41,614 nucleotides of DNA from a virus. Shown here one piece after another: positions 9,208 through 24,472 of this stretch (the first letter of the stretch is position 1; each line of letters begins with the position of its first letter). Location of the stretch: positions 1 through 41,614 of IMG/VR virus record IMGVR_UViG_3300033153_009793. One strand, given 5' to 3'. Below the pieces are notes generated by a model that saw only the letters and a program-made list of their open reading frames with translations, made no database searches and was not told the DNA's origin. The position numbers and the translations under genes are program-made.

Positions 9208-10257
9208 ATGTCTAATATATTTAGCAAAGTCGTAACTACGATTACCCAGGACTATATTGTTCCTAAGGTAGTTGATAATATTCTTGACGGAAACGTTCTA
9301 GCTGGAAGATTTCTTTCAACCAGAAAAGACGCTACCTCCTGGGGAAGATTGGTCAGCGGTGAACAGTTGAAAATACCTATTAAGTATCAAAAATCTACTA
9401 CAGGTGGATGGTACTCGTTCTGGGATACTTTCAGCACTAACCAAGACCAAACCAGAGTTTTAGCAGAATACAATCCTAAACAACTTTACTGGTCAGTCGG
9501 AGCTGCTGGTATCCAAATTGGAGTCAATAAGGGAGACCAAAAAGTTCTTGACCTATTAAAAGTTGAAATGGATTCTTGCTCTGCTGACATGATGGACACT
9601 TTCGGTACTGGTCTCTATTCAGACGGTACTGGAACTTCCAACAAAGAGTTAACTGGTTTAAAAGCAGCCGTTGACGATGGAAACGGTGTAGCAACTTACG
9701 CTGGTTTAGCTAGAGGAACATATACCACTTGGCTTTCTGACCTTGATGCCTCGTCTAACACAATCACTCGTTCCGAACTAGGTGCATCATTTAATGCTGC
9801 AGTTCATGGAAATGAACAACCAACATTAGGTGTTACAACCGAAACAATTTGGACTACGATTGAGGGCTTAGCAATGGGGACTATCATGTTCAACAACCCA
9901 ATGCCTGGTTTATCCAAAGAATATGGACAATGGAGCAGAGCTGGAGTAAAGAAAGGAGTTGGAGCAGAACTTGGTGTTACCTCTCTATTTTTCAGAGGAA
10001 AACCAATTATTGCTGACGAAAAGTGCACTTCAGGATACTTTTATTGGTTGAATGAAAGGCACATTGGTTTAGCCACTTGGCCTTACCCAATTCCAGAGTT
10101 TCCAGGTTATGTTTCAAAACCCAACTATCATGGTTTTTGTTGGACAGGACTTAAAGTCCCAACCAACCAAGACGCATCTGTTGGACAATTTTTGTTCTAT
10201 GGAAATCTAGTTACTGACGCTTGTCGTACACATTCATATATGACTGGCAAATCATAA
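9208..10257 (+). CDS. Major capsid protein
   Basis: A 349-aa protein directly after the scaffold. Features typical of HK97-fold coats: an N-terminal arm, TTGGWYSFWD and LYWSVGAAGIQIGVNKGD strand-rich segments, a central helix, and an Asp/Gly-rich E-loop region (DTFGTGLYSDGTGT). The late part has FNNPMPG and FFRGKPIIADE, common in phage coat proteins. It assembles the icosahedral shell. Codon use is less AT-biased than in the accessory genes, as expected for a highly expressed protein. Confidence 0.85.
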   Translation: MSNIFSKVVTTITQDYIVPKVVDNILDGNVLAGRFLSTRKDATSWGRLVSGEQLKIPIKYQKSTTGGWYSFWDTFSTNQDQTRVLAEYNPKQLYWSVGAAGIQIGVNKGDQKVLDLLKVEMDSCSADMMDTFGTGLYSDGTGTSNKELTGLKAAVDDGNGVATYAGLARGTYTTWLSDLDASSNTITRSELGASFNAAVHGNEQPTLGVTTETIWTTIEGLAMGTIMFNNPMPGLSKEYGQWSRAGVKKGVGAELGVTSLFFRGKPIIADEKCTSGYFYWLNERHIGLATWPYPIPEFPGYVSKPNYHGFCWTGLKVPTNQDASVGQFLFYGNLVTDACRTHSYMTGKS

Positions 10258-10259
10258 AC

Positions 10260-10742
10260 ATGGCAGATTTAACAGGAAGAGTTCAAATTTTTAGCGGAGA
10301 CACTTCTGTTGTTGACACTACCTTAAAACATGCTTTAGGAACTAGAGCTTTTGATGCTAACGCCAATGAGTATATTTATCTCAAAGGGGTCGCCTCTACA
10401 GCCGCAGGTTCTTGGGTATCTTTTGATGAAGCTCATGTAACATCTTTAGCAGTTGCTGATGCTGTTGGCAGAGTTGGTGTTGCTATGGCTGCGATTGGTG
10501 CTAGTGCATATGGGTGGTATCAAATCTATGGATATTGCGTAACTACAGCTGCAATTACAGACGGTGATTGTGCTGCAGACGTATTACTTTACTTAACTAG
10601 CACTGCTGGTTCAGTAGATGACGTAGATGTTGCTGGAGACGCCATTTTTGGTGCAATTTCCAGGACAGCAGAAACAGCAATAGCAAGTGTAGTTTCGGCA
10701 GAACTTAACTACCCTTGGGTTTGCAATCAGGACTTCGCATAA
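10260..10742 (+). CDS. Probable head decoration protein
   Basis: The ATG at 10260 (MADLTGRVQIFSGD) is chosen because it lies just after the capsid stop; an upstream frame from 10221 would overlap the capsid gene. The 160-aa product is Ala/Val/Gly-rich, beta-stranded and without charge clusters, like head decoration or fibre proteins that sit on capsid hexamers. It ends NYPWVCNQDFA. Position next to the coat gene supports this. The exact family is not recognised. Confidence 0.65.
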   Translation: MADLTGRVQIFSGDTSVVDTTLKHALGTRAFDANANEYIYLKGVASTAAGSWVSFDEAHVTSLAVADAVGRVGVAMAAIGASAYGWYQIYGYCVTTAAITDGDCAADVLLYLTSTAGSVDDVDVAGDAIFGAISRTAETAIASVVSAELNYPWVCNQDFA

Positions 10743-10760
10743 AGTTTGATTTTAGATTAC

Positions 10761-10855
10761 TTCCCCCTTTCGTTAACGCTTTCCTTGTAGGCTAGAACGG
10801 GGGAAATATTTGGGATTAAAAGGTCGATTATAATTAATAGTCGGTTGCCCCGACT
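10761..10855 (+). promoter_or_regulatory. Two stable hairpins after the decoration gene
   Basis: TTCCCC (10761-10766) pairs with GGGGAA (10800-10805), with an inner CGTT/AACG stem. A second hairpin is AGTCGG-TTGCC-CCGACT (10839-10855). There is no U-run, so this is not an ordinary terminator. The GC content is well above the flanks. It may set message stability, so that capsid and decoration transcripts outlast the rest. Confidence 0.5.
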
Positions 10856-10878
10856 GAAGAGATAACTTAAAGAAAGAT

Positions 10879-11406
10879 ATGGCAATTAAAAACCCAACAG
10901 TGCTGCCAGATGACCCTAAAGAGTCGTTTGATACAGCCAAGAAGTTCACGAATATCGATAGTGAGCCATTCCAATTTAATTGGGATAGCAAACCATTCGG
11001 AGGAACATTAGGGAATAAAGAGGAGATTAAATCAGGAGAAACAGTAATAATGCCAAAATATTTGGTAAGATATGCTGCTCTTCACTTAGCTAAGAAAATA
11101 GTTAAAAGAGAGGGAATAGAAGAAAAACGAAAACATCCTCTTTACAAGAAACACGGAGAAGAATTTATTAAGAATATTGGATACACTATTAGAAATCCTG
11201 CTAGAGAAAAGGAACTTATTAAAGAAATGATAGCTAAGAATTTTGAAGAAGAACCTAAGATTGTTTCACCAGAACCTAAGGTTGTTCCAGAACCAAGTGT
11301 AGAAAAAGCGGAGGAGAAGAAATTTAAGTGTGATTTTCCAGGGTGTGACTTTAGCACAAATGTTAAAATAGCACTTCTAGGACATCAAAGAAAACATAAA
11401 AAATAA
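10879..11406 (+). CDS. Virion-region protein with a C2H2 zinc finger
   Basis: A 175-aa protein. The N-terminal part has NWDSKPFGGTLGNKEEI and a helical basic middle. A Pro/Glu linker (EPKVVPEPSVEKAEEKK) then leads to a C-terminal finger with exact C-x4-C-x12-H-x3-H spacing: CDFPGCDFS, then GHQRKH. Classical C2H2 fingers are rare in phages. Proteins of this organisation follow capsid genes in some uncultured phages. The finger may bind DNA or a capsid partner. Confidence 0.7.
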   Translation: MAIKNPTVLPDDPKESFDTAKKFTNIDSEPFQFNWDSKPFGGTLGNKEEIKSGETVIMPKYLVRYAALHLAKKIVKREGIEEKRKHPLYKKHGEEFIKNIGYTIRNPAREKELIKEMIAKNFEEEPKIVSPEPKVVPEPSVEKAEEKKFKCDFPGCDFSTNVKIALLGHQRKHKK

Positions 11407-11415
11407 AGGTCGCTT

Positions 11416-11497
11416 AGCCCAACTTCGATTGAAGTTTGGGCTGGGGGTTGGAGATTGAAGAACTTACTCCTCCTAAGGGAAACTCTCTCGAACCCCC
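11416..11497 (+). promoter_or_regulatory. Tandem long hairpins before gene 11528
   Basis: AGCCCAACTTC (11416-11426) pairs with GAAGTTTGGGCT (11431-11442) with one bulge and a 4-base loop. Immediately after it GGGGGTT (11443-11449) pairs with AACCCCC (11491-11497), enclosing a 41-nt loop that holds shorter GGAG/CTCC pairings. Clearly structured, without a terminator tail. The next gene begins 30 nt later behind GGAGG. Confidence 0.5.
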
Positions 11498-11527
11498 ATA
11501 CGAAATTTTGATTGGAGGATTATTAAT

Positions 11528-11863
11528 ATGGATATTTTTGCAGGTGTAGCACACACAACGATGCTTAACGGAGTGGTTGATGTTGGGAATTCCAGCGTTA
11601 CAGCAGTTAGGGTTGGAAGTGAAAATCTATCAGAAAGAAAGTGGCTTTACATAATGAACGCTGCTGGGGGAACTAATATTAAGATTTTTATTGGTTCTCA
11701 AAGTGCAGTGGGAGTTGCCTTAACTACAAGTTCGCTACCGAAGTATGGATTTAAGATAGAACAAGGAGATGCTATTTGGTTACCAGTCAATGAAAATATA
11801 ACAATTTATGCTATGTCTAGTGCTGGGGAAGGAAAGCGACTGAGAGTAGCAGAATTAGCTTAA
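11528..11863 (+). CDS. Small virion-region protein (111 aa)
   Basis: An 111-aa, beta-rich protein without Cys (VGNSSVTAVRVGSENL, LYIMNAAGGTNIKIFIG). The pattern matches small single-domain head or head-tail accessory proteins. A GGAGG site lies 11 nt upstream. It is immediately followed by the first Thr/Ser-repeat mini-protein at 11865. I recognise no family with certainty. Confidence 0.6.
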   Translation: MDIFAGVAHTTMLNGVVDVGNSSVTAVRVGSENLSERKWLYIMNAAGGTNIKIFIGSQSAVGVALTTSSLPKYGFKIEQGDAIWLPVNENITIYAMSSAGEGKRLRVAELA

Positions 11864-11864
11864 C

Positions 11865-12041
11865 ATGCCAAATTTAGGACAAATTGAAACATCATTAACT
11901 TGGACAACCACTAGTAGTACTAGTTCAACAAGTACAACTTCTAGTACCACTAGTTCAACCACTAGTACATCTACTTCAACTTCTACTTCTACTAGTAGTA
12001 CATCTACTTCAACTTCTACAAGCACAACCACAGCTGCATAA
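11865..12041 (+). CDS. Mucin-like Thr/Ser-repeat mini-protein (58 aa)
   Basis: A 58-aa frame that starts 1 nt after the previous stop. After MPNLGQIETSLTW the rest is only Thr and Ser, ending TTTAA. It has no other domain. It shares the Thr/Ser composition and codon shuffling of the two large proteins at 20052 and 21455. It lies directly upstream of the sugar cassette, in which it may be an O-glycosylation substrate. Alternatively it is a leftover of a recombined longer protein. Confidence 0.7.
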   Translation: MPNLGQIETSLTWTTTSSTSSTSTTSSTTSSTTSTSTSTSTSTSSTSTSTSTSTTTAA

Positions 12042-12060
12042 TAATTCTTCACAGAGGAGT

Positions 12061-13329
12061 ATGAAGAAACTTAAAATAGCAGTCCTTACCACATTTTACG
12101 AATGGAGTAAGGCGTATAGTTTAACAAGTGTCGTAGATAATCAACTTAGAACTTTGGTAAAACACGGTTATGAAACAATACTTTTTGTACACGATAATTT
12201 TACTGGAGGTGACAAAATTCCAAAAGGTGTTGAGGTGAGAAAGGTTATACCAAGGTTTAAGTTGGTAGATTATTCTGCCAACAAAGAATTGGCAAAGGAT
12301 TTTTGGGAACAAGTTAAGGTAGCCCAAGAGTCATTCGAAGAACATTTAAAAGATATAGATATCGTCTTAACGCACGACTTGATATTTCAGGGTTGGTTTT
12401 TAAACTACAATGTGGCAATGAGACGAGCACAACCAAATTTAAAGTGTAAGTGGTTTCACTGGACACACTCAGCACCATCACCAAGACCAGCAAACCTAAA
12501 AGAGCCACACGATTGTAGGTACAAAATGATGCCAAACTCTAAATTGATTTATATGAACCACTATGACGCTTTAAGGTTAGCTGAAATGTACAGCGGAAAA
12601 TTAGACGATGTCAGAATAGTGTTTAATCCACTAGACCCAAGAAGCTTCTATAAACTACACCCATTAGTAGAAAAACTAATAGATAAATATAGTTTATTAA
12701 AAGCAGACGTAATAGACGTTTATCCTTTATCTTCTACGAGATTTGCGGGCAAGCAACCTAAAAAAGTTATTAAAATCTTGGGAGAGATAAAGAAACAAGG
12801 AAAATCAGTTAGATTTATATGTCCAAATGCTCACGCTAATGCTGAAAGAGAAAAGAAAGCGGTTGAGAATTTGATTCATTATGGGATTGAGTGTGGATTA
12901 ACAAGAGAGGAAATTATATTTACTTCGCTAGAGGGCAAAGAATATGAGTTGGGAATTCCACACGAAGCAGTTAGGGACTTATTCTTACTATCTAATTTAT
13001 TCATTTTCCCAACCATGTCAGAGAATTGTCCATTAATATTACTGGAGGCAGCTCTTTCAAAATGTTTATTAGTATTGAATGAAAGCTTTCCGCCTTTAAG
13101 AGATTTTTTTGGAGAAGATGCTCTGTATTTCAAGTTTAATTCTTTAATAGAAACCGTTAACTACGATGATGAAGATAGATTCTATCATGACGTAGCCCTA
13201 ATAATCATTGGAGAATTAAAAAAGAACAGGCCACTTGGTGCATTTACTAAATTAAAACAAAGGTTTAACTACGATTTTGTATTTAAAAATCAACTTGAGC
13301 CTTTATTCTACGAAAAAGATGGCAGATAA
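12061..13329 (+). CDS. GT4-type glycosyltransferase
   Basis: A 422-aa GT-B fold enzyme. The N-terminal Rossmann half starts KIAVLTTFYEW and contains LTHD and WTHSAPSP. The C-terminal half carries the donor-binding E-x7-E motif in FPTMSENCPLILLEA near residue 321. GT4 enzymes retain the anomeric linkage and use nucleotide-sugar donors. GAGGAG precedes the ATG. It is the first enzyme of the sugar cassette and overlaps the methyltransferase by 11 nt. Donor and acceptor cannot be told from sequence. Confidence 0.85.
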   Translation: MKKLKIAVLTTFYEWSKAYSLTSVVDNQLRTLVKHGYETILFVHDNFTGGDKIPKGVEVRKVIPRFKLVDYSANKELAKDFWEQVKVAQESFEEHLKDIDIVLTHDLIFQGWFLNYNVAMRRAQPNLKCKWFHWTHSAPSPRPANLKEPHDCRYKMMPNSKLIYMNHYDALRLAEMYSGKLDDVRIVFNPLDPRSFYKLHPLVEKLIDKYSLLKADVIDVYPLSSTRFAGKQPKKVIKILGEIKKQGKSVRFICPNAHANAEREKKAVENLIHYGIECGLTREEIIFTSLEGKEYELGIPHEAVRDLFLLSNLFIFPTMSENCPLILLEAALSKCLLVLNESFPPLRDFFGEDALYFKFNSLIETVNYDDEDRFYHDVALIIIGELKKNRPLGAFTKLKQRFNYDFVFKNQLEPLFYEKDGR

Positions 13330-14083
13330 AAGTATAACTCAAAAAGACTATAAGGAGTGGGCAGAAATGAATTATTCTAAAGAAAGTCAATACATGAGAA
13401 ACATAGATATGTTTCGTAAGTGTGGAAGGATTCTTTATCCAGATACATCATCAATATACAAATATATTAGAAATATTTGTATTGACCAAGTTAAATGTCA
13501 TCCTCAATATCCAAAGTTTCAGTGGAAACCAAAAATCTGTGATGTGGGCTGTGGTGGAGGATACGGTTCATATATTTTATCTCATGAAGCAGATTTTGTT
13601 TGGGGGATAGATATGAGTGAAAATAATATTAATTGGTGTAAGCAGGTTTATGAGAAACATAAGAATAATATTTACTATTCTTCTCAACTAACCTTTGAGG
13701 TTATAGATATTCGCAACGAACCCAGAGAGTTAATGGCATTTGACATTGTGGCCTGTGTTGAGGTGATAGAACATATTTCTGATTATGAGAAGACTTTATC
13801 GTTTATTAAGAGACTTTGTAAGAAAGAGAAGAATGGAGTTTTTCGAGAACCACCACAAGCAACGATTGTTTATATTTCTAGTCCAAATAGGAATCATCCT
13901 AAAATAGGAGAGATGAATCCTAAGAATAAACGACACGTTAGAGAGTGGACACCACCAGAATTGTATAAGATTTTAACTGAACACTTTAAGTATGTAACCT
14001 TAATGGATATTAAAGGAGAAGCTAAAGGTCTAGATATGAAAAACGCAGTAATGCTTTTTAAGTGTGAATGCCCAATTCCATGA
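13319..14083 (+). CDS. SAM-dependent methyltransferase
   Basis: A 254-aa class I methyltransferase. ATG at 13319 overlaps the glycosyltransferase stop. Motif I is VGCGGGYGS near residue 76, followed by WGIDMSE (motif II acidic residue). FDIVACVEVIEHI matches the next motif of the Methyltransf_11/23 group. Such enzymes cap sugars or sugar carboxylates in glycan clusters. Position in the cassette suggests a sugar or glycan substrate rather than DNA. Confidence 0.85.
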   Translation: MADKSITQKDYKEWAEMNYSKESQYMRNIDMFRKCGRILYPDTSSIYKYIRNICIDQVKCHPQYPKFQWKPKICDVGCGGGYGSYILSHEADFVWGIDMSENNINWCKQVYEKHKNNIYYSSQLTFEVIDIRNEPRELMAFDIVACVEVIEHISDYEKTLSFIKRLCKKEKNGVFREPPQATIVYISSPNRNHPKIGEMNPKNKRHVREWTPPELYKILTEHFKYVTLMDIKGEAKGLDMKNAVMLFKCECPIP

Positions 14084-14508
14084 TAAAAAAACAAAGAAAA
14101 CGAATTTATGATGGATATGTTTATTTATACTTTTCAAACTTTCGTAATACGGGAGTGGGTAAGTATTATGCAGAGCATAGAGTAATAATGGAAAAACATA
14201 TAGGAAGACAATTAAATTCTCGTGAGTTTGTTCATCATAAAAATAAGATTAAAACTGATAATTGTATTGAAAATCTTATCATTGTTACTCAACCACAACA
14301 TTCAAGTATTCATTATTCTAATGAAAAATTACTTAAAGCAAGAATGAAGAAATATAGAAATTGTTGGGGTTGGTGGTTGAAAGGAAAACACTTATCTCTA
14401 GAAACAGAATATAAAAAAGGAAATATTCCTCAAAATGGTTTCAAGAAAGGTCATCCAGGATATTGGTTAGGGAAAAAAAGAATTAAATTATGCGAAACAC
14501 CAAAATGA
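14080..14508 (+). CDS. HNH homing-type endonuclease
   Basis: A 142-aa protein with the HNH_3-type core: EHRVIMEKHIGRQL, then FVHHKNKIKTDNCIENLIIVTQPQHSSIH. The HH pair and the N residues form the metal site. A DNA-binding tail rich in Lys and aromatic residues follows. It starts on an ATGA overlap with the previous stop and ends on an ATGA overlap with the next gene, so it fits the operon without any visible intron. Its AT-rich codon use resembles its neighbours. A free-standing homing endonuclease that spreads the cassette is likely. Confidence 0.85.
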   Translation: MIKKQRKRIYDGYVYLYFSNFRNTGVGKYYAEHRVIMEKHIGRQLNSREFVHHKNKIKTDNCIENLIIVTQPQHSSIHYSNEKLLKARMKKYRNCWGWWLKGKHLSLETEYKKGNIPQNGFKKGHPGYWLGKKRIKLCETPK

Positions 14509-16175
14509 AAAGTTCAAACTCTATAGAACATAAACCTCCAGTTGTTTCAGTTATTATACCAGCAAGAAATGAATTTCCTCAAATAGCATTTACGGTACAA
14601 TCAATTATTAATGACCTGGAAACCTTTTTAAAGCCAGGAGAATTTGAAATAATAATTTGTAATAATTGTTCATCAGATGAGATTTATCCTAAAAGGGGAA
14701 CTGGTGGAACTGTAGATTATTTAATGCCAAGAGGAATGTATTGGAATAGAACTTTAAGAGTTTTATATGACCCAATAGCTGGAAATCACTCTACAAGGAA
14801 TCATGGAGCAATGTTGGCTAGAGGAAAATATATTTTCTTTTCAGATGCTCACATGTCTTACAAGAGAGGATTCTTTCAAAGAATGATTAGGGTAATTGAT
14901 AAAACAGGTGGATTGGTTCATGGCACAATAGGTTGGTTAGGAGCTTATCCAATAGGAAGTTCGATGGGTTATCAATATACAATGAAACTTGGAGAAGAGA
15001 TTAAAGGAACTTGGAATAATTACAAATTAGCAGACGATTATTTTCACATTCCATTACAGGGTCATTGTTGTTTAGGAATGTTAAGAAAGCAGTTTATAGA
15101 GTTTGATGGTTATCCTAAATATCACAGATGTTACGGAGGAGGAGAATTTTATCTTGATATTAAGTGGTGGTTATTTGGTTCAAATGTATCAGTTGACCCA
15201 CAAGCAATCGGATACCATTTATCAGCTCCAAGGGGATATTCCTATAATCACGATGATTACAAACATAATGTCCTAGCTATAGGACTAGCTATCGGAGCTG
15301 ATGAATGGGCAGAAAGGGCTTATATAAATTGGTGTAGACGAGGCAGACCAGAAGTAATGGCAAGGATTTGGAAAGAAGCTCAAGAAGAAACCAAAGAAGA
15401 TAAGGCGTGGATAGCTAAAAAGAGAGTTAAGACATTCAATCAATTGTTAGTGGAAAGGCCGTGGGATAAAATGAACGATAAACTACATGGAAAACACAAT
15501 TCTTCAATGCTTATATTCCATGATACTTGGTTACCTTTGATTAAAGGAACTCCAGCAGAAGAGCTTTATAATAAATCAGAACTTCAGAAGAAATTGGCTA
15601 AATTTATAGATGAAAATCTATCAGATAAGGTTTATAAAAGAGGATACAAACCACCTCAAATAGAAATCAAGTTGAATAAAAAGCAATTACAATACTTGGA
15701 ACGAAATAAAGTCAGATATGATGCTATGAGGACTTATATTCAAGAATATCCAAGGATTCTAGATTTTGGGATAGGGCAAGGAGGATATTACTATGGAACA
15801 AGAGAACCCAAAGTATTGGGGATTGATAATGATAAGGTTTTACTTAATAGGGCTAAAGAATATAATCCAAACTTAGAGATTGTCCACGGAGATGTATTAA
15901 CAGCAGAAATAAAAGAAAGAGATTTTCCCCTAATAATATTATCAGAGATATTAGAACATTTAGAAGACTATCAACCTTTAATAGATAGGGCTAAAGAGTT
16001 TTCTAAAGAAAATGGTCGTTTCTTAATTACAGTGCCGATTAATTCTCCAAAACATAAACATTTTCACCCGATTTGGTCAAAAGAAGATGCGAGAAAATTA
16101 GCTTATAAGTTCGGTATTTTAGAAGAAATTAAAAAAGTAGATAAATCTTGGCTATTATATGTTAGAAAAACTTAA
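14505..16175 (+). CDS. Fused GT-A glycosyltransferase and methyltransferase
   Basis: A 556-aa two-domain enzyme. Residues 10-320 are a GT2-like GT-A domain: VSVIIPARNE, then FFSDAH near 110. The metal motif is Asp-x-His, the form seen in polypeptide GalNAc-transferases (GT27), not the usual Asp-x-Asp. HCCLGML and GGGEFYLDIKWW resemble their later acceptor-side segments. Residues from about 410 form a SAM methyltransferase (DFGIGQGG near 419, then LGIDND). The fusion could add and then methylate a sugar on one acceptor. The GT27 comparison is my inference. Confidence 0.75.
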   Translation: MKSSNSIEHKPPVVSVIIPARNEFPQIAFTVQSIINDLETFLKPGEFEIIICNNCSSDEIYPKRGTGGTVDYLMPRGMYWNRTLRVLYDPIAGNHSTRNHGAMLARGKYIFFSDAHMSYKRGFFQRMIRVIDKTGGLVHGTIGWLGAYPIGSSMGYQYTMKLGEEIKGTWNNYKLADDYFHIPLQGHCCLGMLRKQFIEFDGYPKYHRCYGGGEFYLDIKWWLFGSNVSVDPQAIGYHLSAPRGYSYNHDDYKHNVLAIGLAIGADEWAERAYINWCRRGRPEVMARIWKEAQEETKEDKAWIAKKRVKTFNQLLVERPWDKMNDKLHGKHNSSMLIFHDTWLPLIKGTPAEELYNKSELQKKLAKFIDENLSDKVYKRGYKPPQIEIKLNKKQLQYLERNKVRYDAMRTYIQEYPRILDFGIGQGGYYYGTREPKVLGIDNDKVLLNRAKEYNPNLEIVHGDVLTAEIKERDFPLIILSEILEHLEDYQPLIDRAKEFSKENGRFLITVPINSPKHKHFHPIWSKEDARKLAYKFGILEEIKKVDKSWLLYVRKT

Positions 16176-17058
16176 AAACTTATTACTAGAAGAAATTAAG
16201 AAAGTTCCTAGACCATTCGGAGTATTTCTATCAGGAGGTATGGATTCAGCTATTTTAACAGCACTTTCAAAACCAGACTTTGTTATCACCTGTAATTTTC
16301 CTTTAGGAGAAAAGTACGATGAGTTAAAATATGCTCAAATAGTAGCTAGATATTTCAAGATACCACTAACTATTATTAGACCGAGAAAAGAAGACTTTAA
16401 AGAAGATTTAGTTAAAGCAATTAAAATTATTGGACAACCTACAAATTCAGTAAGTATAGTTCCTTGGTATAAACTAATGGAAGCCACTAAGGGTAAGATA
16501 ATGATTAATGGCGAGGGAGCTGATGAGTTATTTGGCGGATACTCTAGATACTTAATTCTAAAGCAAGTATTTGAGCTTTATAAAAGACCAGAATTAAAAA
16601 ACTACAAACCAACTTTAGACTTTTTGTTTAAAGATATTCATTCAAGATTGGTTGAGAAAGAACTTAAATATGTTTATGAGAAGGATAAAACCGATATGGA
16701 AAATGCAATGAACTTAGAGTTTAATGAAACACTACCAGATATTCTCTTTATGGAACGAAGACTATCAGAACACTTTGACGTTGATTTTTACCAACCATTT
16801 ATGAGCTTAAAAGTTAGAGATTTTGCCAAAACTTTACCAATAGAGAAAAAAATTAAAGGTTGGGCTACTAAGTGGATTTTAAGAAAGCTGGCTAATAATT
16901 TAAGTCTTCCTGGTGTTATTTATAGAAGGGTTGACAAAAAAGGATTATGTTGTCCAGTTAATCTGTGGATGGATTGGACTGGAGAAAGGGGTGAGTTTGA
17001 TAAAATTAAGTATATTAAATTTCAACAAAACATTTTATATGGAGGAAATAAAAGATAA
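16159..17058 (+). CDS. Asparagine-synthase-like amidotransferase, no glutaminase domain
   Basis: A 299-aa protein equal to the C-terminal domain of asparagine synthetase B. The ATP PP-loop is SGGMDS near residue 24. GEGADELFGGYSRY near 117 is the other hallmark. The N-terminal glutaminase domain is absent, so it needs free ammonia or a partner. Stand-alone relatives occur in surface-polysaccharide clusters, where they amidate sugar carboxylates. Overlap with the neighbouring genes and context point to sugar amidation here. Confidence 0.8.
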   Translation: MLEKLKNLLLEEIKKVPRPFGVFLSGGMDSAILTALSKPDFVITCNFPLGEKYDELKYAQIVARYFKIPLTIIRPRKEDFKEDLVKAIKIIGQPTNSVSIVPWYKLMEATKGKIMINGEGADELFGGYSRYLILKQVFELYKRPELKNYKPTLDFLFKDIHSRLVEKELKYVYEKDKTDMENAMNLEFNETLPDILFMERRLSEHFDVDFYQPFMSLKVRDFAKTLPIEKKIKGWATKWILRKLANNLSLPGVIYRRVDKKGLCCPVNLWMDWTGERGEFDKIKYIKFQQNILYGGNKR

Positions 17059-17779
17059 TTACGTTTCAATAATATTTATTCATTGGGCACAAAATTCGCA
17101 TAGGTCACAGTTATCAAGAGCTTCTTTAAAATCACTACAATCAACAATTCATAGTTCATCAGAAATAATAGTAGTGGATAATGGAGATAATTTAGAAGAT
17201 TCACAATTCTTTTTAAAAGAGTGCCAAGAAAAAAGAATAGCACTTTATATAAGAAATTCGGACAATATGTATTTTGGGTTCGCAAGAAATCAAGGAATAA
17301 TAGCTTCAAGTTCTAATTGGGTGGTAATAGTAGATAATGATATTGTTTATAGGAAAAAGTGGTTAGAAATGTGTTTAATGATGTTAAAAGCTCATCCAGA
17401 TAAGAAATTAATAGCTTCACCTTTAAATTATCCTTACGTTCATAAAAGAGACCCAAGATGGAGACATGGAACTATTCAAGTTAAAAAAAGAGCTTGTAAT
17501 CTTACAGAAAGAGCTGGTTCAAATTGCATGGTTATGAGAAGAAATGTGTTCGATGATGTGGGATTGTTTAAGTTTAACAGAATTGCTGGTTCACATTTTA
17601 CAGACGCTTTGGTTAGTGCAGGATATTTAGTAATAACTCCTGAGGTTAATTGGGCTTTTGATGGAGCATTAAGAGCTGGGTATAATTTTAAAAATCCAGC
17701 CACAGTCAAAAGAACTTTATCTGATGGAGAACAAATAGATTTCAATGACAAAAGTTTCAGTTCTTATTTCAAATTATAA
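17039..17779 (+). CDS. GT2-type glycosyltransferase
   Basis: A 246-aa GT-A enzyme starting at the ATG at 17039, inside the end of the previous gene; an earlier in-frame start at 16913 would give a 126-nt overlap and is not favoured. YVSIIFIHWAQNSHRSQL opens the fold, EIIVVDNG is the nucleotide-binding strand, and VVIVDNDI near residue 98 provides the Asp-x-Asp metal site. RAGSNCMVMRR and the following region fit GT2 acceptor sites. It overlaps the next gene by 35 nt. Confidence 0.8.
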   Translation: MEEIKDNYVSIIFIHWAQNSHRSQLSRASLKSLQSTIHSSSEIIVVDNGDNLEDSQFFLKECQEKRIALYIRNSDNMYFGFARNQGIIASSSNWVVIVDNDIVYRKKWLEMCLMMLKAHPDKKLIASPLNYPYVHKRDPRWRHGTIQVKKRACNLTERAGSNCMVMRRNVFDDVGLFKFNRIAGSHFTDALVSAGYLVITPEVNWAFDGALRAGYNFKNPATVKRTLSDGEQIDFNDKSFSSYFKL

Positions 17780-18464
17780 AAATGACGACATTACAGTGGT
17801 TCACGTTAGAGAGTGCATGAATTCAACTTTGATGCCAGATGAGATAGTTGTGGTTAATGATGGTGGTTTTCTGGGCTTAAAATCGAAGCTAGAGGCCTTA
17901 GAGCTTAAAACAAAAGTGATTTATGCCTATATACTAGAAGATATTCGTTGGAATTATACTGGAGCAAGAAATTTAGGTATTTGGTTGTCATCTGGAGACA
18001 TTATTTCTGTAGAAGATAATGACCACATACCGCATAAAGATTTTTATAAACAATGCGTAGAAGTTTTTGAAAAGAATCCTAACATTGGAAGAATCAAAAC
18101 ACATAAAAGATGGGTGGTTGAACTAGAAGATGTATTAAAAAATCCAATAGAAGAATGGAAAATAATTGGAAAAAGACCACCACATCAGGACACGGTGATG
18201 TTAAGAAGAAGTGTTCTATTAAAAATTAAAGGTTATGACGAAAGATTTGCTGGAGAATATGGATGGTGTTCAACCGATGCCAGAAGAAGACTATTAAAGG
18301 CTGGAACAGAAAGTACTAATATAGGAAATCAATACGTTGTTATGTCGCCAAAGACAAGGGGTTTAAGTTCAAGGAATTGGAAAATGGCTAGAACTCAGAG
18401 AGACTATCAATCACCTCATGGTATACTAAATTTTCATTATATTTATGAAACCTTACAAAATTAG
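17745..18464 (+). CDS. GT2-type glycosyltransferase
   Basis: A 239-aa GT-A enzyme. KVSVLISNYKND begins it, EIVVVNDGG follows, and SVEDNDH near residue 89 is the metal-binding region. RPPHQDTVMLRRSVL matches the acceptor loop region of GT2 enzymes. It overlaps both neighbours, so the cassette is one translationally coupled unit. Sugar donor unknown. Confidence 0.8.
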   Translation: MTKVSVLISNYKNDDITVVHVRECMNSTLMPDEIVVVNDGGFLGLKSKLEALELKTKVIYAYILEDIRWNYTGARNLGIWLSSGDIISVEDNDHIPHKDFYKQCVEVFEKNPNIGRIKTHKRWVVELEDVLKNPIEEWKIIGKRPPHQDTVMLRRSVLLKIKGYDERFAGEYGWCSTDARRRLLKAGTESTNIGNQYVVMSPKTRGLSSRNWKMARTQRDYQSPHGILNFHYIYETLQN

Positions 18465-19017
18465 AATAGACGATGTTTTACAAGTTAATCCAGCTTCAAA
18501 GTGGCAGAGATTAGCTTGGAAAGAAAAATCGCCATTTGAATGGTTTAAAGAAACAGATGAGATTATTAAAAAATACAAACTTCATTGTATTTTAGCTGTT
18601 TTATCAGAAGGAATAGACGAATATCCTAAATGGGTTAGCTATATTAAGAGAAGAAAAAAGAGATACCAAATTGAACTTCATGGCTCTTCTCACAAAAATT
18701 ATTTAAAACTAACCGAAGAAGAATTAGAACAAGACTTGATAGAAGCTAGAGATAAAATAGAAAAAACATTTAAGACTAAAATAACAACATGGTACGTTCC
18801 TTGGGGCAGAAAACAGCAAAATCTTTACGGGAAAAAGATTTGTCGCAAATTAAGATTAAAATATGGAGTTCCAAAAGGAAGACAAGATATACTTACTTAT
18901 TTATGGGTTAAAAAATATAGACCAAATCATAGGTTTACCTCAAATGAATTTAATATTCACTTTTGGTCGGCAAAAGAAATTAGTAAATTAGAAGAATTTA
19001 TAAAAACATGGAAGTAA
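18445..19017 (+). CDS. Polysaccharide deacetylase-like (CE4/NodB) enzyme
   Basis: A 190-aa protein with the short form of the CE4 layout: IRIDDV near residues 7-11 (catalytic and metal Asp pair), ELHGSSHKNY near 76-85 (metal His residues) and WYVPWGR near 111-117. CE4 enzymes remove acetyl groups from N-acetylhexosamines with a divalent metal. In this cassette it could deacetylate a GlcNAc or GalNAc residue on the phage glycan. Alternatively it acts on host wall or capsule. Confidence 0.75.
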   Translation: MKPYKIRIDDVLQVNPASKWQRLAWKEKSPFEWFKETDEIIKKYKLHCILAVLSEGIDEYPKWVSYIKRRKKRYQIELHGSSHKNYLKLTEEELEQDLIEARDKIEKTFKTKITTWYVPWGRKQQNLYGKKICRKLRLKYGVPKGRQDILTYLWVKKYRPNHRFTSNEFNIHFWSAKEISKLEEFIKTWK

Positions 19018-19178
19018 AAGAAAAAGAACCAACATATACAAGAACTCAAGTTTTAGAAATGTTTGACTTTTGTTTTATGGGATTAAATGGTTCTAGAGTT
19101 AAATGGCCTGCTGGAAGTAAAGACTTAATGAAGCTTTTGTTAGATAAATATAATAAACCAACTAAAAAAAATGTATAA
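19008..19178 (+). CDS. Small hypothetical protein in sugar cassette (56 aa)
   Basis: A 56-aa frame overlapping the deacetylase by 10 nt and the epimerase by 8 nt. The product (MEVKEKEPTYTRTQVLEMFD) is charged and helical, with a WPAGSKDLMKLLLDKY segment. Tight overlaps on both sides are good evidence that it is translated. No known family. Confidence 0.6.
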   Translation: MEVKEKEPTYTRTQVLEMFDFCFMGLNGSRVKWPAGSKDLMKLLLDKYNKPTKKNV

Positions 19179-20046
19179 TATAGTTGTTAGTGGTGGAGCG
19201 GGTTTTATAGGAAGTCACTTAACGGACAGGTTAATAGAACTAGGACATAGGGTTATTGTTTATGATAATTTAAGTACTGGCAAAATAGAGAACCTTAATC
19301 CTAAGGCTAAGTTTATTAAATATGATATTTCAGAATTATATTATTTTGAAGATAAAGTAGATTATGTATTTCATTTAGCGGCAGTTCCAAGAGTTCCTTA
19401 CTCAGTAGCCCATCCAAGCATTACTCACAGAATGAACGTAGAAGGAACTTACAAGATTTTAAAAGTAGCGTCTGACGCTAAAGTTAAAAAGTTTATTTTC
19501 GCCTCATCTTCATCGGTTTATGGAGACCAAGAATTACCCTTAAAAGAAACAATGAGAACTTATCCTAAAAGCCCCTATGCTCTTCATAAATTAATAGGAG
19601 AACAATATTGTAAACTATTTAATGAGTTATATGGATTACCGACAGTTGCTCTAAGATTTTTTAATGTCTACGGGAAAAGAGCAGACCCAAACAGTGAATA
19701 TTCTTTAGTAATAGCTAAGTTTTTAAAATATAAAAAAGAGAATAGACCGTTCACAATTTATGGTGATGGAGAACAAACGAGAGACTTTACTTATGTTGAT
19801 GACGTAATTAATGCATGTATTCTCGCAATGGAAAAATTAGTTCAAAATGAAGTCATTAATATTTGTAATGGAAGAGCAGTTTCAATAAATAAAATTGCTA
19901 AGATAATTGGAGGAGAAAAGACATTTTTACCTAAAAGAAAAGGAGACATAGAGCACACTTTGGGTAGTCCTGAAAAAGCCAAAGATTTATTAGGGTGGAA
20001 GCCAACTATCGATATTAAAAAAGGAATTAAGTTAATGGAGGGATAG
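19171..20046 (+). CDS. NAD-dependent nucleotide-sugar epimerase (GalE-like)
   Basis: A 291-aa extended SDR enzyme. GGAGFIGSHL near residue 8 binds NAD. VFHLAAVPRVPYS, SSSSVYGDQ and the catalytic YALHK (about 136-140) follow. RDFTYVDDV is the substrate-domain signature of UDP-hexose 4-epimerases and dehydratases. It most likely interconverts UDP-Glc/Gal or UDP-GlcNAc/GalNAc, giving the cassette its own donor. Length is slightly shorter than GalE but complete. It ends 5 nt before the Thr/Ser-repeat protein at 20052. Confidence 0.85.
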   Translation: MYNIVVSGGAGFIGSHLTDRLIELGHRVIVYDNLSTGKIENLNPKAKFIKYDISELYYFEDKVDYVFHLAAVPRVPYSVAHPSITHRMNVEGTYKILKVASDAKVKKFIFASSSSVYGDQELPLKETMRTYPKSPYALHKLIGEQYCKLFNELYGLPTVALRFFNVYGKRADPNSEYSLVIAKFLKYKKENRPFTIYGDGEQTRDFTYVDDVINACILAMEKLVQNEVINICNGRAVSINKIAKIIGGEKTFLPKRKGDIEHTLGSPEKAKDLLGWKPTIDIKKGIKLMEG

Positions 20047-20051
20047 ATTAA

Positions 20052-21053
20052 GTGGCTTGGACTTACGAACAACTTTTTAATGGATTAAACGATGGTGATT
20101 TAAACACTCAAGATTCTTGGAGTGGTGATACATCGTTTGATGTTCAAACTACCGAAAAATATGAAGGGGCAAAAGCCGTTTCAGCAGTAACAGATGGGAA
20201 TATTCACGAAATCACGAGGTCAATTACTAGTATTAGTGCTGGGTCGGTTTATGTCGCAATAAGAGCATCGGTAACTACTCTTGATACAACTATACTCTTT
20301 TTAGAAGAATCTCCAGACAGTAAAATGTTTCTCGGTTGTAAATCGGGATATTTCGCAATATATGATAATTCAGCTGGTTGGGTTAATATTCAAACCTATA
20401 ATGCTAACCAATGGTATGTGGCAAATATTGAATTTAATAATTCTACTCAACCCGATGAATATAGGATAAGAATTCATGACGGCACATCTTGGGGGACTTG
20501 GACTGGTTGGAAAACGGTTTCAGGTGGTTCTTATACAAACATTGACGGTATTTCATTTTACCACGATACAGCAACTGCTACTATTTGGTGGGATACAATA
20601 ACTCCAACAGACCCAGTACCAGCCACAACCACCACAACCAGTTCTACGACTACGTCTACGACCTCATCTAGTACTACAACATCTACGACTTCCTCAACGA
20701 CTAGTACAACATCTACGACAACATCGGCAACTTCCACCACATCAACGACTACTTCTGCAACAAGTACTACAAGTACTACAACTAGTGCCACATCAACCAC
20801 TTCCACTACATCTACTTCTTCTACGACGTCTAGTACGTCTACCACAACCTCTGCTACGTCTACCACCTCTACAACAAGTTCTACATCTTCAACATCTTCT
20901 AGTACATCTACTACTAGTACTAGTACAAGTACAAGCTCTACTTCATCGTCTACCTCGACTTCTACATCTACAACCACACCACCAATGCCTTTTTTAATAG
21001 CAAAAATGGATATTAGTGACTTTAAGCCAATCATGACAATAAAAATAAAATAA
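20052..21053 (+). CDS. Mucin-like virion protein with beta-sandwich head
   Basis: A 333-aa protein starting at GTG 20052. Residues 1-185 look like a carbohydrate-binding or LamG-type beta sandwich (SWSGDTSFDVQ, AKAVSAVTDGN, QWYVANIEFNNSTQP, TIWWDTITP). Residues of about 190-310 are Thr/Ser only. The end, MPFLIAKMDISDFKPIMTIKIK, resembles the C-terminus of the 1005-aa protein (MD-x2-DFKPI-x2-IKI). That suggests a shared virion-anchoring tail. It directly follows the sugar cassette and is a probable glycosylated fibre or surface protein. Confidence 0.75.
   Translation: MAWTYEQLFNGLNDGDLNTQDSWSGDTSFDVQTTEKYEGAKAVSAVTDGNIHEITRSITSISAGSVYVAIRASVTTLDTTILFLEESPDSKMFLGCKSGYFAIYDNSAGWVNIQTYNANQWYVANIEFNNSTQPDEYRIRIHDGTSWGTWTGWKTVSGGSYTNIDGISFYHDTATATIWWDTITPTDPVPATTTTTSSTTTSTTSSSTTTSTTSSTTSTTSTTTSATSTTSTTTSATSTTSTTTSATSTTSTTSTSSTTSSTSTTTSATSTTSTTSSTSSTSSSTSTTSTSTSTSSTSSSTSTSTSTTTPPMPFLIAKMDISDFKPIMTIKIK
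20620..20985 (+). repeat. Codon-shuffled Thr/Ser repeat region, first large protein
   Basis: About 120 codons of only Thr and Ser with a few Ala (for example SATSTT). All four Thr codons and all six Ser codons are used in mixed order, so no long perfect DNA repeat exists. The protein repeat is kept while the DNA repeat is broken up. The reverse strand is also open over this stretch, an artefact of the composition. Confidence 0.9.
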
Positions 21054-21116
21054 ATAATATATGGAGGAATAATTAAGGGCAAGCTTTTTAAAAATAGGCT
21101 TAATGTCCAAAAAGAT

Positions 21117-21458
21117 ATGAAAATTGAAATTAAATTACCAGAATGGGCAGACGAAAGAGCTATTTATATTATGGCTGGAATTGAATTAGTCGCCTTTAAA
21201 ATACCAGAGAAGAATTGGCAGATAAAAACTAGTAGGTGTAATATGTGTGGGAAATGTTGTATGAATTTACGAAACACACATCCATTTCCAATAATAGATG
21301 GAAAATGTATTCATCTTAAAAAAGAACCAGGAAATAATCAGAAGTGGAGATGTGGATTAGGAATACATAGACCATTTGGTTGTTGTGTAGGCATATTTAC
21401 TGGTGATTATGCATACAAACATGTTCCAGAATGCACTGAAAAATACAAAGAACTATGA
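21117..21458 (+). CDS. YkgJ-like Cys-cluster protein
   Basis: An 113-aa protein with CNMCGKCC near residue 40, CIHL, then CGLGIHRPFGCC and a final Cys. The CxxCGxCC signature is that of the YkgJ (CxxCxxCC) family, thought to bind iron-sulfur or zinc. It lies between the two Thr/Ser-repeat proteins, and its stop overlaps the ATG of the second. A redox or modifying role on those proteins is possible. Why a phage carries it here is unknown. Confidence 0.75.
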   Translation: MKIEIKLPEWADERAIYIMAGIELVAFKIPEKNWQIKTSRCNMCGKCCMNLRNTHPFPIIDGKCIHLKKEPGNNQKWRCGLGIHRPFGCCVGIFTGDYAYKHVPECTEKYKEL

Positions 21459-24400
21459 ATATAATTTGTTGTAAATGTAAAAAGGAATACTTATTAGAGG
21501 AGAACATATTTGAGGCGAATAAATTAAACAGACCGATTCTGAATTGTCCTCATTGCGAATTTAAACATTTGATTGATTTTATTCCTTTTAAGAAAGATTT
21601 GGGGCTTAAAAAAATCAAAGAGTTAAATCTTCTTACTTATTATATAGATTTAACTGCTTCAAGAATTGCTGATTCTGATAGGGCTGACCAATCAGGTTCA
21701 GATGATGGAGATGTGATTGATTGGACAAAAACTAATGACTTTATTCTTGCTACTCAAATAGCAACGAGTAAAGGTCCAATAGATAGAAGTTATAAACTTA
21801 GATGGAGAAACGTTACTGATGGTGGTTCTTTCGCAGATGTAGCTTCTACTGGAGAAATTTCTTATTCTGCTACTACTGTATTGGGAGATGGCACTACATT
21901 AACAAGTGGAAACAAACTCTGCACTGGAACTGTTGGAACTTGGCAAGATGGATTAGAAACTGAAGGAGATAATCTTTTACCTGATTCTGGAATATACTCT
22001 TTAGCAGATGAATATTACACAGAATTTCAATGGGCTTTAGATTGTGATAGTGCTTTAGATAGTAAAGAATACGAATTTGAGCTTTATGAGATAACAAATG
22101 GAGTAGTTATCGCAACAGCTTTATCATCTATTACAATGGCTGCTGCGGCAACCTCTACAACCTCTACTACTTCAACAACGACCTCCACTACATCAACGAC
22201 TACCAGTACAACCAGTAGTACTACATCTACAACTACTAGTGCCACATCAACAACTTCTAGTACAACTAGTTCTACCACGTCATCTACAACTAGTAGCACA
22301 ACGTCAACGACTACATCCGCCACCAGTACTACATCAACAACCTCTACTACGAGTAGCACTACAAGTTCTACTTCTACAAGTACGACCTCTACTACATCTT
22401 CCACTACAAGTACTACAACTAGTGCAACATCGACCACTAGTACAACAAGCACTACTTCGTCTACTACCTCTAGTACCACTTCAACTACCTCATCTACTAC
22501 CTCATCATCAACTACATCGACTAGTACAAGTACTTCTAGCACGTCTAGTTCTACATCTACTAGCACCTCAACTACCACATCTGGAGTTCAAAACTATTCA
22601 TTAGATTTAGAGAAAGATTCTTCTCAATATGCTTATGCGGCAGATAGCACAGACCTTTCTATTACAAGCGATATAACTATTGAGGCGTGGGTGAAAGTGG
22701 AAGATGCTCCAAGTTCAGCGGCTTATTCAATGGTTGGAAAATGGGCTTCGGGCGATGGTGCTTATTTCTTTTCTTATCTTGATGCTTCTGGTACAAAGAG
22801 TATACGATTAAATCTTTATGATACAGCTGCCCCAGGAACAAATGTGCCTTACGATTGGACTTATACTTTAACTCCTGGAACTTGGTATCATTTAGCAGTA
22901 ACGTGGGACAAAACAGGACATGCCAATGGCGATGGAACGGCAGAGTTATTTGTAAATGGTTCAAGCCAAGGAACGGTTACTGATGGTAGTGCTGCTGATA
23001 TTAATGATAGTGCCGCAGTTTGTGGAATTGGTGCATTAGGAGCAGGAGTATCGGGTTATTTCTTTGACGGAAAAATAGATGATGTAAGAATATGGTCTGA
23101 CATTAGAACTTCTACTGAAATAGCCAATAATAGGTGTGTAGAACTTAATGGAAACGAAGCTAATTTGGTAGCATACTGGATGCTAGATGGTCACGAAGAA
23201 GATAAAGGAACATCCACCGACCCAGCGGGTTCAATATCAGATGATTTAACTTTAGTTGCCAGTCCTGTTTATTCTACAGACAGAGCTTCTTGTTGGGCGG
23301 CTACAACTACAACATCTTCTACGACAACCTCTACGACCTCTAGTACAACCTCAACCACCACTTCAGCTACCTCAACGACTAGTACTACTTCGAGTACAAC
23401 AACTTCAGCTACAAGTACTACATCTACCACGTCTTCCACAACATCAAGCACTACGTCTAGTACTACCTCGACTACAACTTCGGCTACATCTACAACTTCT
23501 ACAAGTACGAGCACCTCTAGCACTTCCACCTCTACAAGCACGTCTACGAGTACAACCACATCTCCACCTGAAACTTCCACAACTAGTACCACCACATCTA
23601 GTACAACTAGTACAACTTCTTCCACCACCTCAACAACTACATCTGCAACTAGCACAACATCTACGACCTCGACAACTACATCATCAACTACTACTTCCAC
23701 TACAAGTACCACTAGTTCTACTACAACATCAGCTACCTCGACTACTTCTACTACTTCAAGTACGAGTACTAGTACCACTTCTTCTACAACCAGTACCACT
23801 ACTTCAGTAACTTCTACAACGAGCACGACTTCTAGCACGACCTCAAGCACTACGACATCAACTACGTCTACAACGACATCGGCTACTTCTACAACCAGCA
23901 CAACTAGCAGTACTAGTAGTTCAACAACCAGTACTACAACTAGTACTACCTCTAGTACAACAAGCTCAACTTCAACAACTAGTAGTACTTCTAGTACTAC
24001 AACATCGGCAACAAGTACTACCTCAACTACGACCTCGACAACCTCTAGTACGACAACTAGTACCACGTCAACAACATCTTCTACAACCACATCTGCTACA
24101 TCGACAACCTCAACAAGTACAAGTACTTCGAGCACTTCTACGTCAACAAGTACAAGTACAAGCACGACTACATCTCCAGGGGTTACATCTACTACATCTA
24201 CGACTACAACCGCCACGAGTACAACCTCAACCACGTCTACTACAAGCACGACCAGTAGTACAACTTCTACAACGAGTAGTTCTTCGACCACATCAAGCAC
24301 AACATCTTCCTCGTCTACTAGCACCTCTAGTTCTACAAGCTCAACGAGTTCGTCTACTTCATCATCAACTTCAACCACTACTGGGTTGGCTTCTAGCCTA

Positions 24401-24472
24401 CAAGCACAGATGGATGTATTTGACTTTAAGCCCATTTTAGGTATAAAAATAAATTATAGAGATAGAAGTTAA
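21455..24472 (+). CDS. Large mucin-like virion protein with LamG domain
   Basis: A 1005-aa mosaic. Residues 1-45 are a zinc ribbon (CCKC, then CPHC). Residues 60-225 form a beta-rich structural domain. Thr/Ser block A covers about 232-375. A LamG/concanavalin-like jellyroll spans about 380-595 (ITIEAWVKVED, WYHLAVTWDKT, KIDDVRIWSD). Thr/Ser blocks B, C and D fill most of 616-975. The end (MDVFDFKPILGIKI) matches the C-terminus of the 20052 protein. This is probably a long, glycosylated tail or surface fibre with a sugar-binding jellyroll. Confidence 0.8.
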   Translation: MNIICCKCKKEYLLEENIFEANKLNRPILNCPHCEFKHLIDFIPFKKDLGLKKIKELNLLTYYIDLTASRIADSDRADQSGSDDGDVIDWTKTNDFILATQIATSKGPIDRSYKLRWRNVTDGGSFADVASTGEISYSATTVLGDGTTLTSGNKLCTGTVGTWQDGLETEGDNLLPDSGIYSLADEYYTEFQWALDCDSALDSKEYEFELYEITNGVVIATALSSITMAAAATSTTSTTSTTTSTTSTTTSTTSSTTSTTTSATSTTSSTTSSTTSSTTSSTTSTTTSATSTTSTTSTTSSTTSSTSTSTTSTTSSTTSTTTSATSTTSTTSTTSSTTSSTTSTTSSTTSSSTTSTSTSTSSTSSSTSTSTSTTTSGVQNYSLDLEKDSSQYAYAADSTDLSITSDITIEAWVKVEDAPSSAAYSMVGKWASGDGAYFFSYLDASGTKSIRLNLYDTAAPGTNVPYDWTYTLTPGTWYHLAVTWDKTGHANGDGTAELFVNGSSQGTVTDGSAADINDSAAVCGIGALGAGVSGYFFDGKIDDVRIWSDIRTSTEIANNRCVELNGNEANLVAYWMLDGHEEDKGTSTDPAGSISDDLTLVASPVYSTDRASCWAATTTTSSTTTSTTSSTTSTTTSATSTTSTTSSTTTSATSTTSTTSSTTSSTTSSTTSTTTSATSTTSTSTSTSSTSTSTSTSTSTTTSPPETSTTSTTTSSTTSTTSSTTSTTTSATSTTSTTSTTTSSTTTSTTSTTSSTTTSATSTTSTTSSTSTSTTSSTTSTTTSVTSTTSTTSSTTSSTTTSTTSTTTSATSTTSTTSSTSSSTTSTTTSTTSSTTSSTSTTSSTSSTTTSATSTTSTTTSTTSSTTTSTTSTTSSTTTSATSTTSTSTSTSSTSTSTSTSTSTTTSPGVTSTTSTTTTATSTTSTTSTTSTTSSTTSTTSSSSTTSSTTSSSSTSTSSSTSSTSSSTSSSTSTTTGLASSLQAQMDVFDFKPILGIKINYRDRS
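22150..22581 (+). repeat. Thr/Ser repeat block A
   Basis: About 144 codons of Thr and Ser, broken only by occasional Ala in SATSTT words. Codons are mixed as in the other blocks. It separates the N-terminal structural part from the LamG jellyroll and would act as an extended, glycosylatable stalk. Confidence 0.9.
23301..24380 (+). repeat. Thr/Ser repeat blocks B, C and D
   Basis: Three blocks (about 23301-23563, 23571-24174, 24187-24380) separated by short SPPETS and SPGVTS breaks. About 350 codons in total. The breaks and the recurring STSTSTTTSP ending suggest block duplication followed by codon drift. The final block leads straight into the conserved C-terminal motif. Confidence 0.9.

Follow-up and report, generated by a model that had tools for sequence, protein, structure and literature searches.

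What would a tailed phage do with a set of sugar-transferring and sugar-modifying enzymes whose genes lie inside its structural block? The question is raised by the metagenome-derived IMG/VR virus record IMGVR_UViG_3300033153_009793, whose whole length of 41,614 bp, here called the window, represents a tailed phage by its gene content. An earlier description made from the letters alone (the sequence-only reading) had placed an eight-gene sugar cassette at 12061-20046, between a Thr/Ser mini-protein and two large Thr/Ser-rich proteins, and had proposed mucin-type glycosylation of the phage's own virion proteins. Comparison with Pfam and NCBIfam confirmed this layout: the interval contains eight sugar genes and one HNH endonuclease gene. 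From sequence comparisons and structure models we consider it likely that the phage encodes here a cytoplasmic O-glycosylation system whose targets are its own Thr/Ser-rich appendage proteins.

The key enzyme is encoded at 14490..16175, on the + strand like all genes of the region, and has two parts, a glycosyltransferase (GT) with an Asp-x-His (DxH) motif (residues ~1-395) and, fused to it, a second methyltransferase (~415-530). The motif, to which the sequence-only reading had drawn attention, is Ser-Asp-Ala-His at residues 118-121. Asp119, His121 and His243 are invariant in 11 homologues and align with the metal ligands (DSH and YH) of the Toxoplasma N-acetylgalactosamine transferase GalNAc-T3 (8uhv), the metal ligands of GalNAc-transferases being as described in PMC11074326. 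In an analysis of GT-A enzymes, the replacement of DxD by DxH was found in GT27 and GT60, both of which act in polypeptide Ser/Thr O-glycosylation (PMC7185993). Pfam assigned the enzyme to generic GT2 only. In PDB, a profile of nine homologues matched polypeptide GalNAc-transferases with E=0.004, and with 11 homologues the best six matches were all polypeptide GalNAc-transferases (8uhv, 6s22, 2d7i, 1xhb, 5nqa and 8v9q). The leading match, to 8uhv (E=1.3e-6), extended over 259 positions and the entire catalytic domain, and paired DAH with DSH, the Tyr of YGGGE with the Trp of WGTEN, and the YH of PxAxxYH with that of PCSRVYH. As controls, profiles of the two GT2 enzymes of the cassette were compared with PDB in the same way. 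The profile of one (GT2c) matched chondroitin synthase and SpsA, with zero GT27 matches, and that of the other (GT2b) matched heparosan/chondroitin synthases first and GalNAc-T2 more weakly, in the N-terminal half only (residues 6-126). The sequence-only reading had also suggested a structure comparison with GT27; when an AlphaFold2 (AF2) model was searched with Foldseek, the best 50 matches were all GT27, the top one with E=3.1e-16 and the set with template modelling (TM) scores of 0.42-0.51, normalised to the query. The C-terminal part of the transferase is helical, and in the window a methyltransferase comes next; this fusion, also pointed out earlier, holds for the window and was not seen in close homologues. 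In profile and predicted fold, the enzyme is thus a GT27-related candidate polypeptide Ser/Thr transferase, similar to the animal enzyme with which mucin synthesis begins.

A motif-based scan for cellular relatives of this enzyme in the genomes of 84,980 species, in which absence is no proof, gave only one weak partial match of 31% identity, and tblastn against 50,697 phage records found only the cultured Tunturiibacter phage Tunturi_4, where the relative (gp2; PP885687.1:1567-2565, L368) is encoded between terminase and portal. In two other homologues, from related phages (L358:14523-16565, +; L360:16669-18672, -), an intein-like in-frame insertion of ~300 amino acids occupies a conserved site; it begins with CVDExTExLT and ends with ..V..TG(N/Q) ahead of TW.

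Candidate acceptors lie on both sides of the cassette. The mini-protein (11865..12041, +) has 58 amino acids, 46 of them Thr or Ser, and consists of a short N-terminal motif, MPNLG..TSLTWTT, followed by an almost pure Thr/Ser tail. At the other end, a 333-amino-acid protein (20052..21053, +) combines an N-terminal domain of ~185 residues with a Thr/Ser tract and a conserved C-terminal tail (..DFKPIMTIKIK). A 1005-amino-acid protein (21455..24472, +) has a zinc-ribbon-like start, an N-terminal domain, Thr/Ser tracts, a LamG-like lectin domain (residues 389-557; PF13385, E=4e-25) and the C-terminal tail ..DFKPILGIKINYR. Judged by position and domains, these are putative virion proteins. Among relatives the N-termini of the large proteins vary, and most of the proteins close, downstream of the tract, with a similar tail, ..PELEIKxITPILEIKRTYR, which in the window and in the related locus L007 takes the form DFKPILxIxxxYR and may act as an anchor.

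The large proteins had been described as repeat proteins, and this did not hold: their tracts are irregular, codon-scrambled runs and not true repeats. Twelve tracts with a total of 1,727 residues consist of 53% Thr, 41% Ser and 2.6% Ala, with Gly (0.5%), Pro (0.5%) and Asn (0.2%) rare; the 94% of Thr plus Ser is partly a selection effect, since the tracts were chosen by a Thr/Ser threshold, which does not affect the codon scrambling. Third codon positions are mixed and Ser is drawn from both codon families. A simple DNA-repeat origin was rejected, as the codons are scrambled while Thr/Ser is retained, and minus-strand open reading frames (ORFs) across the tracts (e.g., 23269-24435) were dismissed as antisense artefacts. 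Among single-base changes from the tract codons, 56% would lose Thr/Ser (44% keep it), yet only 6% of residues are neither. Thr/Ser content kept at such a level, despite these losses and the scrambled third positions, indicates selection on the hydroxyl side chains. Such a constraint would be easier to reconcile with an O-linked modification than with a linker that is just flexible.

It bears on a different explanation, in which capsid or tail proteins carry the glycans of the virion, in the manner of mycobacteriophages, and the Thr/Ser tracts are mere flexible spacers for LamG-type domains. There is a precedent: phage-encoded virion glycosylation is established in mycobacteriophages (Freeman 2023, as cited in PMC12619734 and PMC11256854), with glycans on the C-termini of capsid and tail-tube proteins (the same study, as cited in PMC12619734), and in phage Corndog genes for GTs and an O-methyltransferase lie among the structural genes (PMC4351075). 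However, plain linkers would admit Gly, Pro, Asn and Gln, which are nearly absent in the tracts, and the mini-protein, almost all tract, stays with the sugar genes across wide divergence. We regard this explanation as unlikely.

The association between enzyme and tracts was examined in records of at least 25 kb, with a run of 20 Thr/Ser-type codons as the tract criterion. Such a run was present in 12/12 records with the DxH enzyme and in 1/13 portal relatives without it (Fisher p=3e-6), the exception (G132) carrying three other GT2s. Fifty control viral records yielded a single run, of Cys/Arg/Ser type, and thus true Thr/Ser tracts in 0/50. A first, broad pattern scan for tracts was noisy, a real Thr/Ser ORF being present in 50 of 120 loci, and those alone were used. 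In unrelated Thr/Ser-tract records of at least 15 kb, taken from a pattern scan of viral contigs, a GT2 gene was found in 10/30, vs 2/50 random-pattern records of comparable length (Fisher p=0.0007; length-stratified p=0.002; small samples). These GT2 genes were nearer to the tract than under random rotation, 6 of the 10 within 7 kb (p=0.01; small sample).

The arrangement of the locus is conserved as well. From the Thr/Ser mini-protein through 0 to about 10 sugar genes and one or more large Thr/Ser proteins to a connector, the same order is shared by no fewer than 11 related records and is therefore not due to chance. Nine close-lineage loci cover the cassette start (the window, L005, L007, L129, L130/L004, L131, L132, L133 and L134), and all nine encode at the same place a Thr/Ser mini-protein of about 51-192 amino acids with a related N-terminus and a tail that varies freely in length and order; further relatives also have it. 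A full counterpart is L007, with mini-protein, GT4, methyltransferase, DxH transferase, GT2, deacetylase, uridine diphosphate (UDP)-sugar dehydrogenase, epimerase, a 592-amino-acid Thr/Ser protein and connector. Between it and the window, GT4 is 74% and the DxH transferase 75% identical, vs 55% for the capsid protein, which places the core transferases among the better-kept genes. The sequence-only reading had seen one operon; this applies to the window, but in distant relatives the GT4-methyltransferase-DxH block, which moves as one unit, is encoded apart from the structural genes and in many cases on the opposite strand (G111, G125, G126, G128, G131, G109/G110 and G133). In these split-cassette phages, the order of mini-protein, variable sugar genes, one to three large Thr/Ser proteins and connector is intact wherever it could be read. 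As the block has relocated there, core block and Thr/Ser genes evidently stay in one genome without being adjacent. The variable sugar genes of relatives include UDP-sugar dehydrogenase and aminotransferase genes. A further record, L136, apparently a different phage, encodes a remote GT4 homologue (34%) that lies with several GT2s next to another Thr/Ser-rich protein, of 280 amino acids (7037-7879 and 9968-20678).

The core block of the window opens with a GT4-type GT of GT-B fold (12061..13329, +), which matched PF13439/PF00534 below the cut-off. Its AF2 model has a predicted local distance difference test (pLDDT) score of 91, and Foldseek led to GT4 enzymes such as BshA/MshA, with one chlorovirus GT4 fold among the matches; kinship with GtfA was considered and is unsupported, the closest folds being of BshA/MshA type. 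The 50,697 phage records gave zero tblastn matches to this GT4. It is followed by an S-adenosylmethionine-dependent methyltransferase (13277..14083, +; PF13847, E=1e-14), which in almost every full-length relative stays next to GT4 and the DxH transferase. Downstream of the DxH gene lie an asparagine-synthase-type amidotransferase domain lacking the glutaminase domain (16159..17058, +; PF00733, E=3e-39), of which a relative has a full-length version with GATase_7, and then GT2b (17039..17779, +; PF00535, E=1e-14; probable start at 17039 in an ORF open from 16913) and GT2c (17745..18464, +; PF00535, E=2e-10). The cassette ends with a NodB-type polysaccharide deacetylase (18445..19017, +; PF01522, E=8e-11) and a GalE-like, nicotinamide adenine dinucleotide-dependent nucleotide-sugar epimerase/dehydratase (19171..20046, +; PF01370, E=7e-63). 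The best PDB match of the latter is the UDP-glucose 4-epimerase 4zrm, and the NCBIfam model TIGR01179 scored 168 bits, under its cut-off of 262 bits, so that UDP-GalNAc is only a possible donor.

Epimerase, deacetylase, amidotransferase and UDP-sugar dehydrogenase genes also typify O-antigen and capsule loci, and GTs of some temperate phages change the host serotype (as noted in PMC12619734). The cassette might thus modify the host surface polysaccharide, for receptor masking or superinfection exclusion, next to Thr/Ser stalks that are not glycosylated. Against this, no transmembrane segment is predicted in any cassette protein (maximum 19-residue hydropathy <1.5), and Pfam and NCBIfam revealed no flippase or polymerase (Wzx/Wzy), polyprenol-linked transferase or GtrA/GtrB among them. 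Moreover, the genes of the window lie inside the structural block, in relatives they are bracketed by Thr/Ser genes, and the key enzyme resembles polypeptide transferases. A role in host polysaccharide modification is therefore improbable. The predicted solubility of all cassette enzymes is consistent with, and supports, action on phage proteins in the cytoplasm.

Methyl- and amido-transfer enzymes occur in base-hypermodification pathways too, and the transferases could be imagined to glycosylate a modified DNA base, so that the phage evades host nucleases. Phage GTs that act in DNA hypermodification have been described (Pyle 2024, as cited in PMC12619734). However, the scanned proteins, which did not include all small ORFs, contained no hydroxymethylase, thymidylate-synthase-like protein or DNA kinase, the neighbours are structural genes and a sugar-nucleotide epimerase, and the DxH enzyme is polypeptide-transferase-like. 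We consider DNA as the target highly improbable.

Several observations weigh against glycosylation of the phage's own Thr/Ser proteins. The AF2 model of the DxH transferase is of moderate confidence (mean pLDDT 73), which has to be read together with the TM scores given above, and Pfam detected no ricin-B lectin domain in it; as this domain is lacking, we call the enzyme GT27-like and do not file it as GT27. The relative in Tunturi_4, which is 27% identical by profile and has a DNH motif, belongs to a phage without a Thr/Ser tract. The DxH family therefore need not act on such tracts and other acceptors are possible, which also speaks for capsid or tail acceptors. Conversely, both kinds of tract occur without any transferase on an 18.5-kb fragment (G130), and 20/30 of the unrelated tract phages have no GT2 gene, so the tracts can exist without GT2. 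On the portal tree, cassette and tracts occur together in one clade and its neighbours have neither, which amounts to about one joint gain; the p-value of the co-occurrence test overstates the evidence, because it counts essentially one clade and not many independent events, and 2 of the 12 positive records (G109 and G110) resemble one virus. An apparent in-clade phage without cassette and tracts (G129) was rejected, since its portal is identical to that of G103 and the contig stops before the locus. The mucin-type self-glycosylation proposed by the sequence-only reading is partly supported, by the GalNAc-transferase kinship, the linkage to Thr/Ser proteins across diverged phages and the soluble enzymes. 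The tracts are rich in Thr/Ser and, unlike animal mucins, nearly free of Pro; the label "mucin-type GalNAc" for the putative glycan is unproven.

Self-glycosylation of the appendage proteins, which we still favor, could proceed as follows. The conserved core (GT4, methyltransferase and DxH GT27-like transferase) would attach the first sugar or sugars to Thr/Ser side chains, both in the large stalk proteins and in the mini-protein encoded beside the capsid genes. The simplest pathway would be cytoplasmic, dependent on nucleotide sugars and active ahead of assembly, as in serine-rich repeat adhesins (PMC6973325). Since the DxH enzyme and GT4 are the constant components, we attribute priming to one or both of them, and tailoring to the variable components. 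These (further GT2s, epimerase, amidotransferase and deacetylase, plus UDP-sugar dehydrogenase and aminotransferase in relatives) would build and decorate a lineage-specific glycan. The mini-protein might be anchored in the particle by its N-terminal LTWTT-type motif, and the large proteins by their C-terminal PILEI/KPIL tail. Assembled particles would then bear sugar-coated bristles, some displaying a lectin-like LamG domain, which may serve in shielding, spacing or adhesion.

The surroundings of the locus are those of a phage head region. Terminase (4610), portal (6548), a scaffold-like protein (8598) and the major capsid protein (9208) are followed by a 111-amino-acid protein (11528..11863, +), which directly precedes the mini-protein and has homologues of 27-55% identity at the same place in most close relatives. 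On the other side, a Cys-rich protein of 113 amino acids without a Pfam family (21117..21458, +) separates the two large Thr/Ser proteins, and a 454-amino-acid protein (24486, +), treated as the head-tail connector, keeps its position in relatives; all genes from the 111- to the 454-amino-acid protein are on the + strand. The HNH endonuclease (14068..14508, +; PF13392, E=3e-10) is missing at the corresponding position in L007 and L129 and is probably a mobile insertion outside the pathway. A strain 99.99% identical to the window (L002) lacks 157 bp (window 13997-14153), so that its methyltransferase and HNH reading frames run into one. A 175-amino-acid protein (10879-11406), with homologues at the same place in relatives, ends with a C2H2 zinc-finger-like motif (CDFPGCDFSTNVKIALLGHQRKHKK) that is unusual for a phage head-gene region. 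The capsid protein has distant kin in a TM7 phage, and in three relatives its gene falls into two matching ORF pieces (L348:3055-5006, L356:9369-11324 and L284:5078-6361), possibly by an intron or intein, one of them with an HNH gene nearby.

Virion glycosylation has been proven in few phages, and low-complexity Thr/Ser stretches of phages are usually regarded as linkers. If our proposal is true, tying such stretches to an enzyme set would offer a sequence-based route to sugar-coated phages, the presence in prokaryotic viruses of a DxH enzyme resembling polypeptide transferases would bear on the origin of GT27/GT60, and a soluble transferase-plus-acceptor pair would be at hand for dense O-glycans in bacteria. 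Our literature search, which covered few subscription papers, found no paper on phage DxH polypeptide-transferase-like enzymes with Thr/Ser acceptors, so novelty is unproven. More tentatively, with somewhat more doubt than conviction, we suggest that this clade has its own polypeptide Ser/Thr O-glycosyltransferase of the GT27/GT60 branch with dedicated, near-pure Thr/Ser acceptors. The particles of these tailed phages would then carry what amounts to viral mucins, and a tailoring set that changes fast would accompany a conserved priming core.

Among known systems, Gtr-type serotype conversion and O-antigen modification differ from the cassette, which lacks membrane GtrA/GtrB, Wzx/Wzy and polyprenol-linked families. 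The autonomous glycosylation of chloroviruses and giant viruses likewise rests on a virus-encoded pathway with sugar-nucleotide enzymes and GTs, but those are eukaryotic viruses. Mycobacteriophages of Che8 and Corndog type share with the window phage-encoded GTs and a methyltransferase and a glycan on their own particle, here proposed from the genes; the GT genes of the window are linked to virion structural genes, as in phage virion glycosylation and as in Corndog. In contrast to them, the window has a larger sugar-modification set and proposed dedicated Thr/Ser stalks in place of capsid and tail-tube acceptors, and its GT4 and DxH enzymes have no detectable homology to the mycobacteriophage enzymes. 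Loci of serine-rich repeat adhesins (GtfA/GtfB, accessory Sec; Fap1, GspB, PsrP) have conserved cytosolic priming enzymes and a variable number of extending ones (PMC6973325) and, like the window with its candidate, place soluble GTs beside a long Ser/Thr-rich acceptor. They differ in that Pfam and NCBIfam found no DUF1975 (GtfB-like) match or accessory Sec among the cassette proteins, in that the candidate primer here is a DxH GT-A enzyme, and in that the acceptors are phage-borne. Compared with GT27/GT60, the window enzyme is without the ricin-B domain, has Gly-Gly-Gly-Glu where GT27 has Trp-Gly-Gly-Glu-Asn, and carries a helical C-terminal extension and a fused methyltransferase; it shares with them the GT-A fold, the DxH motif, the C-terminal metal His and, in the window, candidate Ser/Thr-rich acceptors.

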